Assembly: GCA_022827275.1 (NCBI GenBank)
Contig: JAJDTG010000016.1
Span: forward strand, 1 to 64,000
Reading direction: 5' to 3'
Source: Candidatus Dadabacteria bacterium
Lineage (GTDB): Bacteria; Desulfobacterota_D; UBA1144; Nemesobacterales; Nemesobacteraceae
DNA: 64,000 bases
Shown here in pieces: positions 23,639 to 28,327 of the stretch. Below the pieces are notes generated by a model. It was not told where the DNA came from. It was given only the letters and a program-made list of their open reading frames with translations, and did no database searches. The translations under genes and the position numbers were made by a program. How positions within the stretch are numbered: the first letter of the stretch is position 1; every line of letters starts with the position of its first letter.

Positions 23639-25201
23639 ATGTCAAAACGCTTTAATATCTTTCTGGTTTTTGCCGCGTGTTTTCTTTTCGCCCCGGTCGG
23701 GGCGGATGCCCTTACGCTTACGCAGGCGAAGATAATGGCCCTTGAGAAAAACCACGATATAAGGGTCTGGAAGCTCGGCGTCGACGCCGCACGCGGGGAG
23801 CACAAGAGCAGACAGGGGGTCTATGATCCCGAGATAAGCTTCATGACTTCCTACGCCGACACGAAAAATCCCACTGCCAGTGCTTTCATAGAGGACGGAA
23901 TAATAAACGCCGAGGTTTTCTCCTTCGGAAGCGAACTCTCCGGAAAGCTTCCTACCGGAACCTTCTACAAGCTCTACGATCTTGAAGTGTCGAGGGCCGA
24001 GACCGATTCTCCGCTTGAGAGCCTGAACCCTTCGTGGTCCGCGAGCCTTGGTTTCAGCGTGGGACAGGAACTGCTCCGCGGCTTCGATATAGCTTCTAAC
24101 AGGGTGTCCGTGGTGCTCTCGAGAAAGGACAGGGACATATCCGTTTACGAATTCGAGCGCATGGTGGCGAAGACGCTTTTTGATCTTGAGAGAAGCTACT
24201 GGGGAGTAGTGGCCGCTGCCCGCGACCGCGACCTTGAGAAAAAAGCCTACGATCTTGCCCTGGACCTTGAGAGAAGAACCGGAATACAGGTGGAGGTCGG
24301 GGTTCTGCCCAGGGTGGCCCTAACTCAGGCGCGCTCCGAGAGCGCCGCCAGGAAGGTGAGAATGATAAACTCTGAGAACTCCTACGAGGCCTCTATGGAT
24401 GCGCTTAAGAACCTGCTTGTTATCCCCCTGGAGGAAGCCGTTGAACTGCTCGAGGTAACCGACTCCATGCCGACTGCATACGAACTGCCTTCGGAGGCCG
24501 TGTCCGTGGTGCAGGCGTTTGAGAAACGCCCCGAGATGCGCCGGGCGGAGCGGGAAATGGAGAAGGCGCAAGCACTCAAGACCTTTTACTCCCGCCAGAG
24601 GCTGCCGCGCCTCACAGTCGAGGGTCGCTTGGAGTATCTGGGCCTCGGAGGCTCTGAGAACCCCGACAGGCTTGTTTTCGGGGGGCTTGACAGCGTGTCC
24701 CCGCGCTTTGCCGATTCCTCGCATGCCTACGACAGCATCGTCGACCGTGATTTTCCGAACTGGAGCGTGACTGGAAGACTCAGCTTTCCCGTTTTCGGAA
24801 GAAAGGCCGGGGGCGACTACGCGAAGGCCCGTGCCGACTATGACCGAAGCGTTATAAGCTACCAGAAGCAGAAAGATGCCGTGCGTCTTGACGTCAGAAA
24901 CGCCATAAGGGAAATTGCAAGCAGCCAGAAGAGGATGGAGGCTGCCCTGCTTTCCACCAACTTGGCCAGGGAGGTGCTCGGAAACGAGGAGGAGAAGTTC
25001 AAGGCGGGACTTTCCACCACGAGAGAGATTCTCGAAGCTCAGAGGGATCTCATAAGCGCCGAGGCCAACTACATAAGTGCTTTTGCCAGCCACCGGATAG
25101 CCCTTGCCGATCTTGAGCGTGCGAGGGGGACGATGATAGAGAGCAATTCTTTTCTCATAGAGAACCACTCGGACATCGGGTCTTATCTTGAGGATGACTG
25201 A
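23639..25201 (+). CDS. TolC-family outer-membrane efflux protein
   Basis: From ATG 23639 the product has 520 residues, with GGAG 7 nt upstream; the open frame to 23573 is rejected because ATG 23639 gives a clean signal peptide (MSKRFNIFLVFAACFLFAPVGADA). The mature part begins LTLTQAKIMALEKNHDIRV, the usual start of OEP/TolC proteins (PF02321), and has two long alpha-helical hairpin repeats ending AHxIALADLERARG-like (SHRIALADLERARG). TolC-like trimers form the outer-membrane duct for RND, ABC or type I export systems. No inner-membrane pump or adaptor gene is adjacent, so its partner is elsewhere. Confidence 0.88.
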   Translation: MSKRFNIFLVFAACFLFAPVGADALTLTQAKIMALEKNHDIRVWKLGVDAARGEHKSRQGVYDPEISFMTSYADTKNPTASAFIEDGIINAEVFSFGSELSGKLPTGTFYKLYDLEVSRAETDSPLESLNPSWSASLGFSVGQELLRGFDIASNRVSVVLSRKDRDISVYEFERMVAKTLFDLERSYWGVVAAARDRDLEKKAYDLALDLERRTGIQVEVGVLPRVALTQARSESAARKVRMINSENSYEASMDALKNLLVIPLEEAVELLEVTDSMPTAYELPSEAVSVVQAFEKRPEMRRAEREMEKAQALKTFYSRQRLPRLTVEGRLEYLGLGGSENPDRLVFGGLDSVSPRFADSSHAYDSIVDRDFPNWSVTGRLSFPVFGRKAGGDYAKARADYDRSVISYQKQKDAVRLDVRNAIREIASSQKRMEAALLSTNLAREVLGNEEEKFKAGLSTTREILEAQRDLISAEANYISAFASHRIALADLERARGTMIESNSFLIENHSDIGSYLEDD

Positions 25202-25308
25202 TCCGCCTGAACGGTGCTGAGTCCGTTTCTTTTTATCGTCGGTATAACAGACGTATCATGGAAGGATGATCGCAATCCGCTCGGATAACCCCGATTTCCG
25301 CCGCAGCG

Positions 25309-26502
25309 TCATATCGAATGATGATCTATGGGTTCCGTTCCTTCGCTCAGGATGTCAAGATAGTCTTCATATACGAATATCTGCCCGCGGCCTTTTCCGG
25401 TAACCTCATTCAGGATGCCAAGCTCCTGCAGGTGCTTTAAGGCCTTTCTTATTGTCGGCCGGGAAAGTTCGAGACTTCTGTGTGCGTCCGGGACGGATAT
25501 GACGGGCATTCTCTGCAGGAACCGGTAGACCTGGAACACCGACGAGGCGGGGCGGCCCAGCTGTTCGATCCGGCCGTGGTCGCGTTTGGATAGATCCAGT
25601 ATTTTGTGGGCTGTCTCGGAGGCCTGCACCGAGGTGTGGACTACGGCCTCTAGGAAAAACTCAAGCCACGATTCCCAGTCGCCGGTTTCGCGCACGTGCT
25701 GCAGCAGGCTGTAGTAAAGATAACGATGGGTCTTGAAGTACAGGCTGAGATACAGAAGAGGTTCCGCCAGAATGCCCTTCGCGCATAAAAGAAAAGTTAT
25801 CAGGAGCCTGCCGAGGCGGCCGTTGCCGTCTAAAAACGGGTGAATCGTCTCAAACTGCAGATGAATTAGTCCCGCCTTGACGAGCGTCGGCATGTCGAGC
25901 GAGTCGGCGTGAATGAAATTCTCAAGGTCAGACATCAAGTCGCGTACGCGTTCCTGCGGCGGCGGAACGAAAACGGCGGTCGCGGGGTGCGGGCCTCCGA
26001 CCCAGTTCTGCCGGTCGCGCAGTTCCCCAGGGCTTTTCTCCCCGCCGCGCACTCCGGACAGTAGTATCCGGTGAATGTCGCAGATCAACTCAAGGGAAAT
26101 CGGAGCCCCCTTTTCCCTGATCCGCTCAAGGCCATGGTTCATGGCTCTTACGTAGTTTGAAACTTCGAGAACATCTTGACTCGAAGGTCTGCCCAGATCC
26201 TCCTTGCTCTCGTAGAGAAGCAGATCGAAAAAGGAAGACTGGGTTCCCTCTATCTGGGATGAAAGCAGTGCCTCCTTCCGGGTGTACATGTAGATGAAAA
26301 AATGGGGATCGGGAAGTATTGAAGTTATTCCGTCCAGGCGACCCAGGTTCTGGTTCGCTTTTTCCAGCAGTCCGTGGAACCTGTCGACCCGCACGGTCGG
26401 AACGGGGGGAAGGGGCGGAGGTACGAACGCGTTGATTGTCTGCCCCTGAAACGGAGTTTCCACCATTTCTCCCAAGCGGGACGGTTCCGGTTTGAAATCC
26501 AT
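25309..26502 (-). CDS. Fic-family protein with intact active site and C-terminal winged helix
   Basis: This 397-residue protein carries a complete Fic motif HPFLDGNGRLGR (211-222). An SxxxEG inhibitory motif at 81-86 (SSQIEG) lies in the N-terminal helix, as in autoinhibited Fic AMPylators. The N-terminal Fic_N region (about 30-110) and a C-terminal winged-helix (about 325-380, RMPVISVPDAHRSLELSRPT) complete the usual architecture. Such enzymes transfer AMP or similar groups to target proteins; the target is unknown here. The start is preceded by an array of repeated AAAGAAAGGAT elements, and the winged helix is an obvious candidate to bind them. The intact gene contrasts with the fic remnant at 18,893. 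Confidence 0.88.
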   Translation of the reverse strand: MDFKPEPSRLGEMVETPFQGQTINAFVPPPLPPVPTVRVDRFHGLLEKANQNLGRLDGITSILPDPHFFIYMYTRKEALLSSQIEGTQSSFFDLLLYESKEDLGRPSSQDVLEVSNYVRAMNHGLERIREKGAPISLELICDIHRILLSGVRGGEKSPGELRDRQNWVGGPHPATAVFVPPPQERVRDLMSDLENFIHADSLDMPTLVKAGLIHLQFETIHPFLDGNGRLGRLLITFLLCAKGILAEPLLYLSLYFKTHRYLYYSLLQHVRETGDWESWLEFFLEAVVHTSVQASETAHKILDLSKRDHGRIEQLGRPASSVFQVYRFLQRMPVISVPDAHRSLELSRPTIRKALKHLQELGILNEVTGKGRGQIFVYEDYLDILSEGTEPIDHHSI

Positions 26503-26511
26503 TCTTATTAA

Positions 26512-26752
26512 ATATCCTTTCTTTACAGTTTTGCTTAAGAAAGGATAACCGGAAAAACTTTCTTAGCAAGTCTTCTTAAGAAAAGATACCCCTAAATTTT
26601 TCTTTACTGTGTTTTTAAGGAAAGGGTTCTTGCTTTAAAGTTCGCATAAAGAAAGAAAACCCCGAAAACTTTTCTTTAGCCGAATTCCAAGGAAAGCTTC
26701 CTTTCTCTACAATTTCCTTAAAGAAAGGATATGCCCGAATCCTTTCCTAACG
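26512..26752. repeat. Array of AAAGAAAGGAT-like half-sites upstream of fic
   Basis: At least eleven related half-sites of the type TTAAAGAAAGGATA occur in 240 bp in alternating orientation. Forward copies start near 26534, 26575, 26613, 26645, 26688 and 26716; inverted copies lie near 26513, 26557, 26597, 26667, 26700 and 26737. Several forward/inverted pairs are 21-23 bp apart, two DNA turns, giving diverged units of about 30-43 bp. The array fills the gap between fic and purH. It looks like a multi-site operator or a diverged minisatellite. The unit is too variable for a CRISPR repeat. Confidence 0.7.
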
Positions 26753-26761
26753 GGGCGCCAT

Positions 26762-28327
26762 TCAGTGCTTAAAGTGCCTTTTCCCGGTAAAGACCATCGC
26801 CATTGAGTGCTCGTCGGCCGCGGTGATCACCTCGGCGTCCCTTACCGATCCCCCAGGCTGCACTATTGCGGTAATCCCCGCCTGCGCCGCCTCGTCAACT
26901 CCGTCTCTGAAAGGGAAAAACGCGTCTGAGGCGAGAACCGAACCGTCTGTCGGCGTTTTAGCCTTCATCCCGGCGATCCTTACGGAATCGACCCTGCTCA
27001 TCTGCCCCGCCCCTATGCCTACCGTCTGGAGGTCTCTCGCGTAGACAATGGCGTTTGACTTGGTGTACTGACAGACTTTCCAAGCGAACCGAAGATCGGC
27101 CATCTCCTCGGGTGTGGGCTTTCTCTTGGTCGGGATCTTTATCTCTGAAAAATCATCTCCCGATCCCCTGTCGCTTTGCTGTATGAGCGCGCCGCCAGTC
27201 ACTTTCTTTATGTCCCAGGCGCCTGCCCCGCCGATATCCATGCCTCCCGTGAGAAGCACCCGGAGGTTTTTCCTTGCCGAAAGCAGCATGAGCGCCTTTT
27301 CTGAAAAACCGGGGGCTATCACAACTTCTGAGAACATGCCGGCTATCTCCTCGGCCGCGGTCTCGTCAACCTCCCTGTTAAAGGCGATTATTCCTCCGAA
27401 AGCGCTTTCCGGGTCGCACTCCCTTGCCCGGGAGAATGCTTCTGCGGGAGTGTTGCCGAGCGCCGCTCCGCAGGGATTGTTGTGCTTCACTATTACGCAT
27501 GCGATCTCTTCAAACTCCCTTACGAGCTCGAAGGCGGAGTCAGTGTCGTATATGTTGTTAAGGGAAAGCTCCTTCCCCTGGAGCTGCCTGGCGTTCGCGA
27601 CGCAGTGCGACCCGGCTATGTCGCCCTCCGTGTAGAAGGCCCCCAGCTGGTGGGGGTTCTCCCCGTAGCGAAGATCAATCTTTTTTTCGAGGTAGAGGGT
27701 GTAGGTCGCCGGAAGCGGGTTTCTTTCGCCGTCAGGTTCGAGGGACGAGAGATAGTTCGATATCGCTGCGTCGTACCTCGAGACGTATGAGAAGGCCTTT
27801 GCCGAGAGGCGGAAACTGGTTTCGGGAGAGATTCTCCCCTTGTTTCTGCGAAGCTCCCTGAGCACGGCGCCGTAGTCTTCGGGATCGGTGAGCACGGTTA
27901 CCGACGCGTGGTTTTTCGCCGCGGCCCGAAGCATGGCCGGCCCCCCTATGTCTATGTTCTCTATCGCTTCGGAAAACGTGGTCCCCTCTTTCGCGGTCAC
28001 TTCCTCAAAAGGGTAGAAGTTGACAACCAGCATATCTATCGGTTCTATGGAATTCTCGGCCATCTCCTCGCTGTGGCGCTCATCGTCCCTTATTCCGAGA
28101 AGACCCCCGTGGATTTTGGGATGAAGTGTTTTCACCCTTCCTCCCAGTATTTCGGGAAAACCCGTGTAGTCCGATATTTCCGTCACTTTTGCCCCGCCGT
28201 CCCTGAGCCTTCTGGCGGTCCCTCCGGTTGAGAGCATCTCAACGCCTAGTTCCCCGAGGCCTTTTGCTAGCGCGGTTATCCCCTTTTTGTCGTAAACGCT
28301 TATCACCGCTCTTTTTATCTTTGTCAT
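26762..28327 (-). CDS. purH: Bifunctional AICAR formyltransferase/IMP cyclohydrolase
   Basis: This 521-residue protein is full length for PurH, which catalyses the last two steps of IMP synthesis: formylation of AICAR with 10-formyl-THF, then cyclisation. The N-terminal cyclohydrolase (MGS-like) domain starts KRAVISVYDKKGI and includes LSTGGTARRL and KTLHPKIHGG. The C-terminal transformylase contains the catalytic KHNNPCGAA and ends TGKRHFKH. AAGGAG lies 9 nt before the ATG. It is monocistronic as far as the window shows and is the first clear housekeeping gene after the accessory region. Confidence 0.97.
   Translation of the reverse strand: MTKIKRAVISVYDKKGITALAKGLGELGVEMLSTGGTARRLRDGGAKVTEISDYTGFPEILGGRVKTLHPKIHGGLLGIRDDERHSEEMAENSIEPIDMLVVNFYPFEEVTAKEGTTFSEAIENIDIGGPAMLRAAAKNHASVTVLTDPEDYGAVLRELRRNKGRISPETSFRLSAKAFSYVSRYDAAISNYLSSLEPDGERNPLPATYTLYLEKKIDLRYGENPHQLGAFYTEGDIAGSHCVANARQLQGKELSLNNIYDTDSAFELVREFEEIACVIVKHNNPCGAALGNTPAEAFSRARECDPESAFGGIIAFNREVDETAAEEIAGMFSEVVIAPGFSEKALMLLSARKNLRVLLTGGMDIGGAGAWDIKKVTGGALIQQSDRGSGDDFSEIKIPTKRKPTPEEMADLRFAWKVCQYTKSNAIVYARDLQTVGIGAGQMSRVDSVRIAGMKAKTPTDGSVLASDAFFPFRDGVDEAAQAGITAIVQPGGSVRDAEVITAADEHSMAMVFTGKRHFKH

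Follow-up and report, generated by a model that had tools for sequence, protein, structure and literature searches.

A row of alternating half-sites before a SoFic-type fic gene as a probable self-operator

CccR of Yersinia pseudotuberculosis represses its own gene through one inverted pair of half-sites, footprinted as AGATAATCAT-N26-ATGATAATCT, and in the CccR dimer the DNA-binding helices stand 70.2 A apart (PMC9755527); its N-terminal domain is DUF4172 (PMC10628234). In CbFic2 of Coxiella burnetii, which like the protein described below is a Fic protein with a C-terminal helix-turn-helix, DNA binding leads to dimerisation and switches AMPylation to deAMPylation; it was assayed on random DNA, and a specific site or operator is not known (PMC10628234). 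For SoFic, DNA binding was unshown as of the same paper (PMC10628234). EcSofic is a dimer whose C-terminal domain affects activity. Downstream of it lies a small gene for an antitoxin, AS1, and the paper on it describes no operator; it reports that wild type Sofic is difficult to clone with a single lac operator and that auto-inhibition is seemingly incomplete (PMC12249575).

We analysed a stretch of 64,000 nucleotides, as a whole called the window, in which a gene of this kind follows purH (Table 1). Judged by model match and domain order the window Fic is a SoFic-type anti-phage defence protein, of one family with SoFic and EcSofic: it matches the PADLOC SoFic model PDLC03963 over residues 22-387 (E=7.4e-122), while its score of 152.9 against the NCBIfam SoFic equivalog lies under the 550-bit cut-off. 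Pfam finds the Fic_N and Fic domains and no separate helix-turn-helix match, but the phmmer alignment to solved SoFic chains extends to residue 390 and thereby covers the winged helix. The catalytic motif HxFx(D/E)GN(G/K)R is intact as HPFLDGNGRLGR. The N-terminal inhibitory motif of Fic proteins is (S/T)xxxE(G/N), and SSQIEG fits it. A counterpart of the AS1 gene downstream of EcSofic is not evident in the 107-bp gap of the window.

The gap between purH and fic holds a 237-bp array of a 12-bp half-site, T[A/T]A[A/G]GAAA[A/G]GAT, which starts 11 bp past the purH stop and has about 32% GC in a neighbourhood of 55% GC. The half-sites alternate strictly in orientation (13/13), with start-to-start distances of 20, 21, 10, 21, 20, 21, 10, 21, 19, 21, 20 and 21 bp, read from purH to fic and thus along the minus strand. 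It should be noted that 13 is the number obtained by a parse on spacing and 11 the number of unbiased matches. Matches to TAAAGAAAGGAT, a consensus derived from the array itself, number 11 at 9/12 or better (Markov shuffles mean 1.7, max 8) and 9 at 10/12 or better (mean 0.25, max 3). As this consensus is not independent of the array, repeats were also sought de novo, from k-mers and without it, and 11 were found (shuffle mean 5.8, max 9; 0/60 as high). The 11 unbiased matches share a 10.2-bp phase (R = 0.96; 0/2000 random placements), which puts all half-sites on one face of the helix and hence points to a bound protein more than to a folded RNA. The half-site nearest fic lies 11 bp before the ATG and overlaps the sole SD-like AAGGA. 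An earlier note on this DNA had described at least eleven alternating half-sites filling the gap before an intact fic gene; the 13 sites, their strict alternation and the shuffle tests bear out the first part, and our reading of the 397-aa gene the second.

Table 1. Features of the purH-fic region, positions in the window
Feature	Positions	Strand	Sequence	Remark
fic, intact, SoFic-type	25309..26502	-		397 aa; Fic_N + Fic + C-terminal winged helix
C-terminal winged helix codons	25348..25548	-		about residues 319-385; presumed array binder
Catalytic motif codons	25807..25842	-	HPFLDGNGRLGR	
SSQIEG codons	26245..26262	-		
Operator-like array	26514..26750	-		13 alternating inverted half-sites, one helix face; spacing parse and consensus matches
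Half-site 1	26739..26750	-	TTAGGAAAGGAT	nearest purH
Half-site 2	26719..26730	+	TAAAGAAAGGAT	12/12
Half-site 3	26698..26709	-	TAGAGAAAGGAA	
Half-site 4	26688..26699	+	CAAGGAAAGCTT	weak; one turn from half-site 3
Half-site 5	26667..26678	-	TAAAGAAAAGTT	
Half-site 6	26647..26658	+	TAAAGAAAGAAA	
Half-site 7	26626..26637	-	TAAAGCAAGAAC	
Half-site 8	26616..26627	+	TAAGGAAAGGGT	one turn from half-site 7
Half-site 9	26595..26606	-	TAAAGAAAAATT	
Half-site 10	26576..26587	+	TTAAGAAAAGAT	
Half-site 11	26555..26566	-	CTAAGAAAGTTT	weak
Half-site 12	26535..26546	+	TTAAGAAAGGAT	
Half-site 13	26514..26525	-	TAAAGAAAGGAT	12/12
purH	26762..28327	-		upstream neighbour of fic, same strand

Like CccR, the window fic has inverted half-sites in its own upstream region. 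CccR, on the other hand, has a single pair with a 26-bp gap, whereas here there are 13 half-sites at start-to-start distances of 10 and 19-21 bp, and the N-terminal domain is DUF4172 in CccR and Fic_N in the window Fic. With so many half-sites at one- and two-turn spacing, we would expect a way of working like that of CccR on a different type of operator. We consider it most likely that the array is the operator of fic, to which dimers of the SoFic-type protein would bind by their C-terminal winged helices and so repress the gene. In the purH-to-fic direction every reverse-to-forward junction measures 21 bp (two turns), and junctions of the other kind measure 19-20 bp (two turns) or 10 bp (one turn); as the first is constant and the second variable, a single dimer probably spans the former and dimers probably pack against each other across the latter. 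The helix distance of CccR corresponds to 20.6 bp of B-DNA (3.4 A per bp). Up to about six dimers would then line one DNA face over the promoter and start region of fic, and cooperative repression would hold down the level of a toxic, AMP-transferring defence enzyme until the need arises. Binding, the dimer assignment, repression and cooperativity are all steps of the operator model that we infer, and the failure to find any sigma-70-like promoter in the array counts against it, as does the 26-bp gap of the single CccR pair, which has no like among the gaps of the array. In toxin-antitoxin autoregulation, cooperative binding to repeated operators likewise holds a toxic gene down; in that case DNA is bound by the antitoxin, whereas in the window Fic enzyme and presumed repressor are one polypeptide.

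Rows with a lineage-specific half-site and regular spacing precede most of the related fic genes examined. The half-sites differ from that of the window, being AACTAACATAA in one genus-level lineage and ATCCGTCAAT, TTATTGCAGGAT, TTTAAGCCAA, TTATTCCATT and more before other SoFic-type genes; TTATTTAAGC is the half-site of another Fic lineage, and TTATATTAAA stands before a SoFic-type gene in 40-bp tandem copies. The geometry is common to them: inverted half-sites alternate, and copies of the same orientation are about 31 or 41 bp, three or four turns, apart. On alphaproteobacterial plasmids the series >12<19>22< begins 85-92 bp before the start codon (Azospirillum, Aminobacter, Paracoccus and Roseomonas; partly Rhizobium, Agrobacterium, Sulfitobacter and Methylocystis). 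From one Fic lineage to the next the half-site changes and the geometry stays. Upstream of one further SoFic-type gene (L031, G012:C13) six near-identical 40-bp copies of TTATATTAAACACAGCCTTTAATATAGACGTATAAGTCAG form a very regular operator-like array.

These rows were scored by a chain statistic on alternating inverted 10-mers in which the distance from site i to i+2 is 30-32 or 40-42 bp. Among the first 35 SoFic-type loci, p<=0.05 was reached upstream in 22/35, downstream in 3/34 and internally in 0/35. A simple count of inverted pairs had been a weak discriminator (11/35 upstream vs 3/34 downstream) and was dropped for this spacing-aware test. As the distance classes were picked after some loci had been seen, the parameters were frozen for a new set of 80 SoFic-type loci on viral contigs, forming 37 clusters at 75% identity that are still related below that level and not fully independent. 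Here p<=0.05 was found upstream in 26/37 (22 of them at p<=0.01), downstream in 2/35 and internally in 1/37, and control promoters stayed at chance level (3/78 upstream of purH, 3/80 upstream of other ORFs). Chains of at least four sites precede 17/37 of the new clusters and 0/158 of the controls; about 30% of the SoFic-type clusters are negative in the chain test, which counts against the operator reading. The comparison of upstream regions that the earlier note had proposed as a check favours its idea, with arrays before most SoFic-type genes and not before control promoters in general. Among eighteen other Fic genes no chain was as long as four sites; 7 genes reached p<=0.05, 6 of these with a single inverted pair, which is reminiscent of CccR. 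No match came from E. coli genomes searched with a Citrobacter fic. Another type of Fic in the same genus, that of the MWIHEH-type fic genes (L318, L321, L326-L330), has one inverted pair, TTCACCGCATA-like, upstream, which resembles the CccR operator in site number.

Fic itself need not be the binder: a different transcription factor could bind the array and control fic. As Fic binding is something that we infer, this reading keeps some standing, but we hold it to be improbable. No regulator gene lies between array and fic, and the motif follows the Fic protein. The closest fic cluster found, 64% identical and on unrelated contigs (L238 and relatives), has the half-site AAAGAAAGGAT, the same motif, and its spacings of 23, 18, 23 and 8 bp, measured on a 10-mer, equal the 21, 20, 21 and 10 bp of the window array measured on the 12-mer. 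Across 37 lineages half-site similarity goes with winged-helix similarity (Mantel r=0.28, p=0.0002), also given catalytic-domain identity (partial Mantel r=0.18, p=0.0006), and the recognition helices do not vary inside a half-site group but do so from group to group. From the shared half-site and this co-variation the half-site apparently belongs to Fic and not to purH. The proposal of the earlier note that the winged helix could bind the array, making autorepression possible, gains comparative support from these relatives, from the co-variation and from the SoFic-wide arrays.

Somewhat less probable still is an element of purH or of the tolC-purH junction (a terminator, an architectural element or the site of another regulator) next to which fic happened to land. 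This was our first working view, dropped once the arrays of other fic genes had been seen. Taken alone, the genus members with an array after purH and no fic would make it a purH feature. In most genomes of the genus array sequence trails purH regardless of what comes next, which may be fic, a HigA-like gene or an AAA ATPase, or may be missing altogether, and the first palindrome can fold at -11 kcal/mol. Recognisable array sequence, in some cases well conserved, is kept at purH without fic in at least nine genomes of the genus. It stands beside a HigA-like gene in G004, G008, G013 and G009, beside an AAA ATPase in G002 and beside tolC alone in G010; G006 and G005 have a degenerate array after purH and G007 has none, and same-genus genomes without fic at purH have shorter copies. 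Well-kept orphan arrays of the Fic half-site lie on the 3' side of purH in L023, L024, L025, L026 and L027, with fic absent. Such arrays count against the operator reading in that they need a story of loss or another use.

Against a purH element, the closest Fic relatives share half-site and spacings on unrelated contigs, SoFic-type genes generally have such arrays, and purH genes of the sister genus and of the order have none. An intrinsic terminator (GC-rich stem plus T run) was not found in the array, the stems are weak, the RNA fold of the whole array is unremarkable (z -1.4) and the one-turn pairs are unable to form good hairpins. In the purH tree the fic-less carriers G010, G004 and G002 fall outside the G000 and G001 clade, with several forks weakly supported. 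The simplest reading of this tree would be an ancestral fic with its array beside purH, with repeated loss or replacement of fic and erosion of the array from the fic side, and the fic-less arrays would then be orphan operators left after fic loss or replacement. A broken fic with a AACTAACATAA operator-like array still upstream (L021, G011:C7) is consistent with arrays outliving fic. The tolC-purH interval is a hotspot (25201-26764 in the window; loci L032, L033, L181 and L183-L186), and its cargo across the genus includes fic, HigA-type genes, a small PIN-like gene, AAA ATPases, an ImmA-like protein and an MNT/HEPN-like pair. G003 has the 3' end of an orthologous fic, 81% identical, next to a tRNA gene where the contig ends (L036, G003:C49, 9810-10133), the region upstream being absent from the assembly; fic may thus lie at another place in G003.

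A functionless decayed repeat, a minisatellite or mobile palindromic element, would agree with the higher-order 72-bp period of the array and with its varying length among relatives, but is quite unlikely. The second genome with an orthologous fic, G001 (protein 86% identical), keeps the array at 78% identity with few small gaps, more than the fourfold-degenerate sites of fic (59%) and of the purH end (61%); as AT-rich make-up lifts chance identity somewhat, the evidence for selection is good though short of perfect. Kept thus in a second species, the array is not the strain-specific minisatellite that the earlier note had set against its own idea. The 10.2-bp phasing and the spacings are kept despite divergence, the geometry recurs with unrelated sequences before other SoFic-type genes, and no second copy of the array was found elsewhere in 14 genomes of the genus; a dispersed palindromic repeat was rejected on the same search. 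An AT-rich, helically phased array would also suit intrinsic DNA curvature or silencing by an H-NS-like nucleoid protein, but this is very improbable, as the half-sites are lineage specific and a wedge model predicts the array to be straighter than shuffles (294/300 at least as curved). An RNA hairpin array was also rejected, since pair counts among related sequences were only slightly above shuffles, with no clear compensatory support, besides the fold value above. A replication origin or terminus was discarded, GC skew being positive across the region (4-kb scale), near zero at the array and not reversed, and Rfam gave one weak chance match, outside the array.

Returning to the operator of fic, we speculate by analogy with CbFic2 that it might double as a DNA antitoxin, storing several inactive or reverse-running SoFic dimers whose unbinding in phage attack would give active enzyme and derepression at once, an idea we regard as a long shot. 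The proposed self-operator array would be a widespread new form of the CccR-type autorepression operator. We found no description of multi-site arrays before fic in the literature (open-licence papers; an earlier description elsewhere is possible), so that the novelty seen by the earlier note holds for the arrays but not for operators as such, a single pair before a Fic-HTH gene being known from CccR. A widespread self-operator of fixed geometry and lineage-specific sequence would be a directly testable answer to how SoFic enzymes are kept from doing harm before infection, the many natural pairs of Fic and site are material for reading the winged-helix code, and the array could serve as a promoter-side marker for locating SoFic-type genes.

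Two further loci were observed. The fic gene of Thermus pVV8 (L230) overlaps with a DUF1156 gene. On plasmid pAA04 of Aminobacter aminovorans (L219, 1195-3561) a SoFic-type gene immediately precedes Hachiman HamA and a DEAD/DEAH helicase, and this Fic might also regulate the downstream defence operon.
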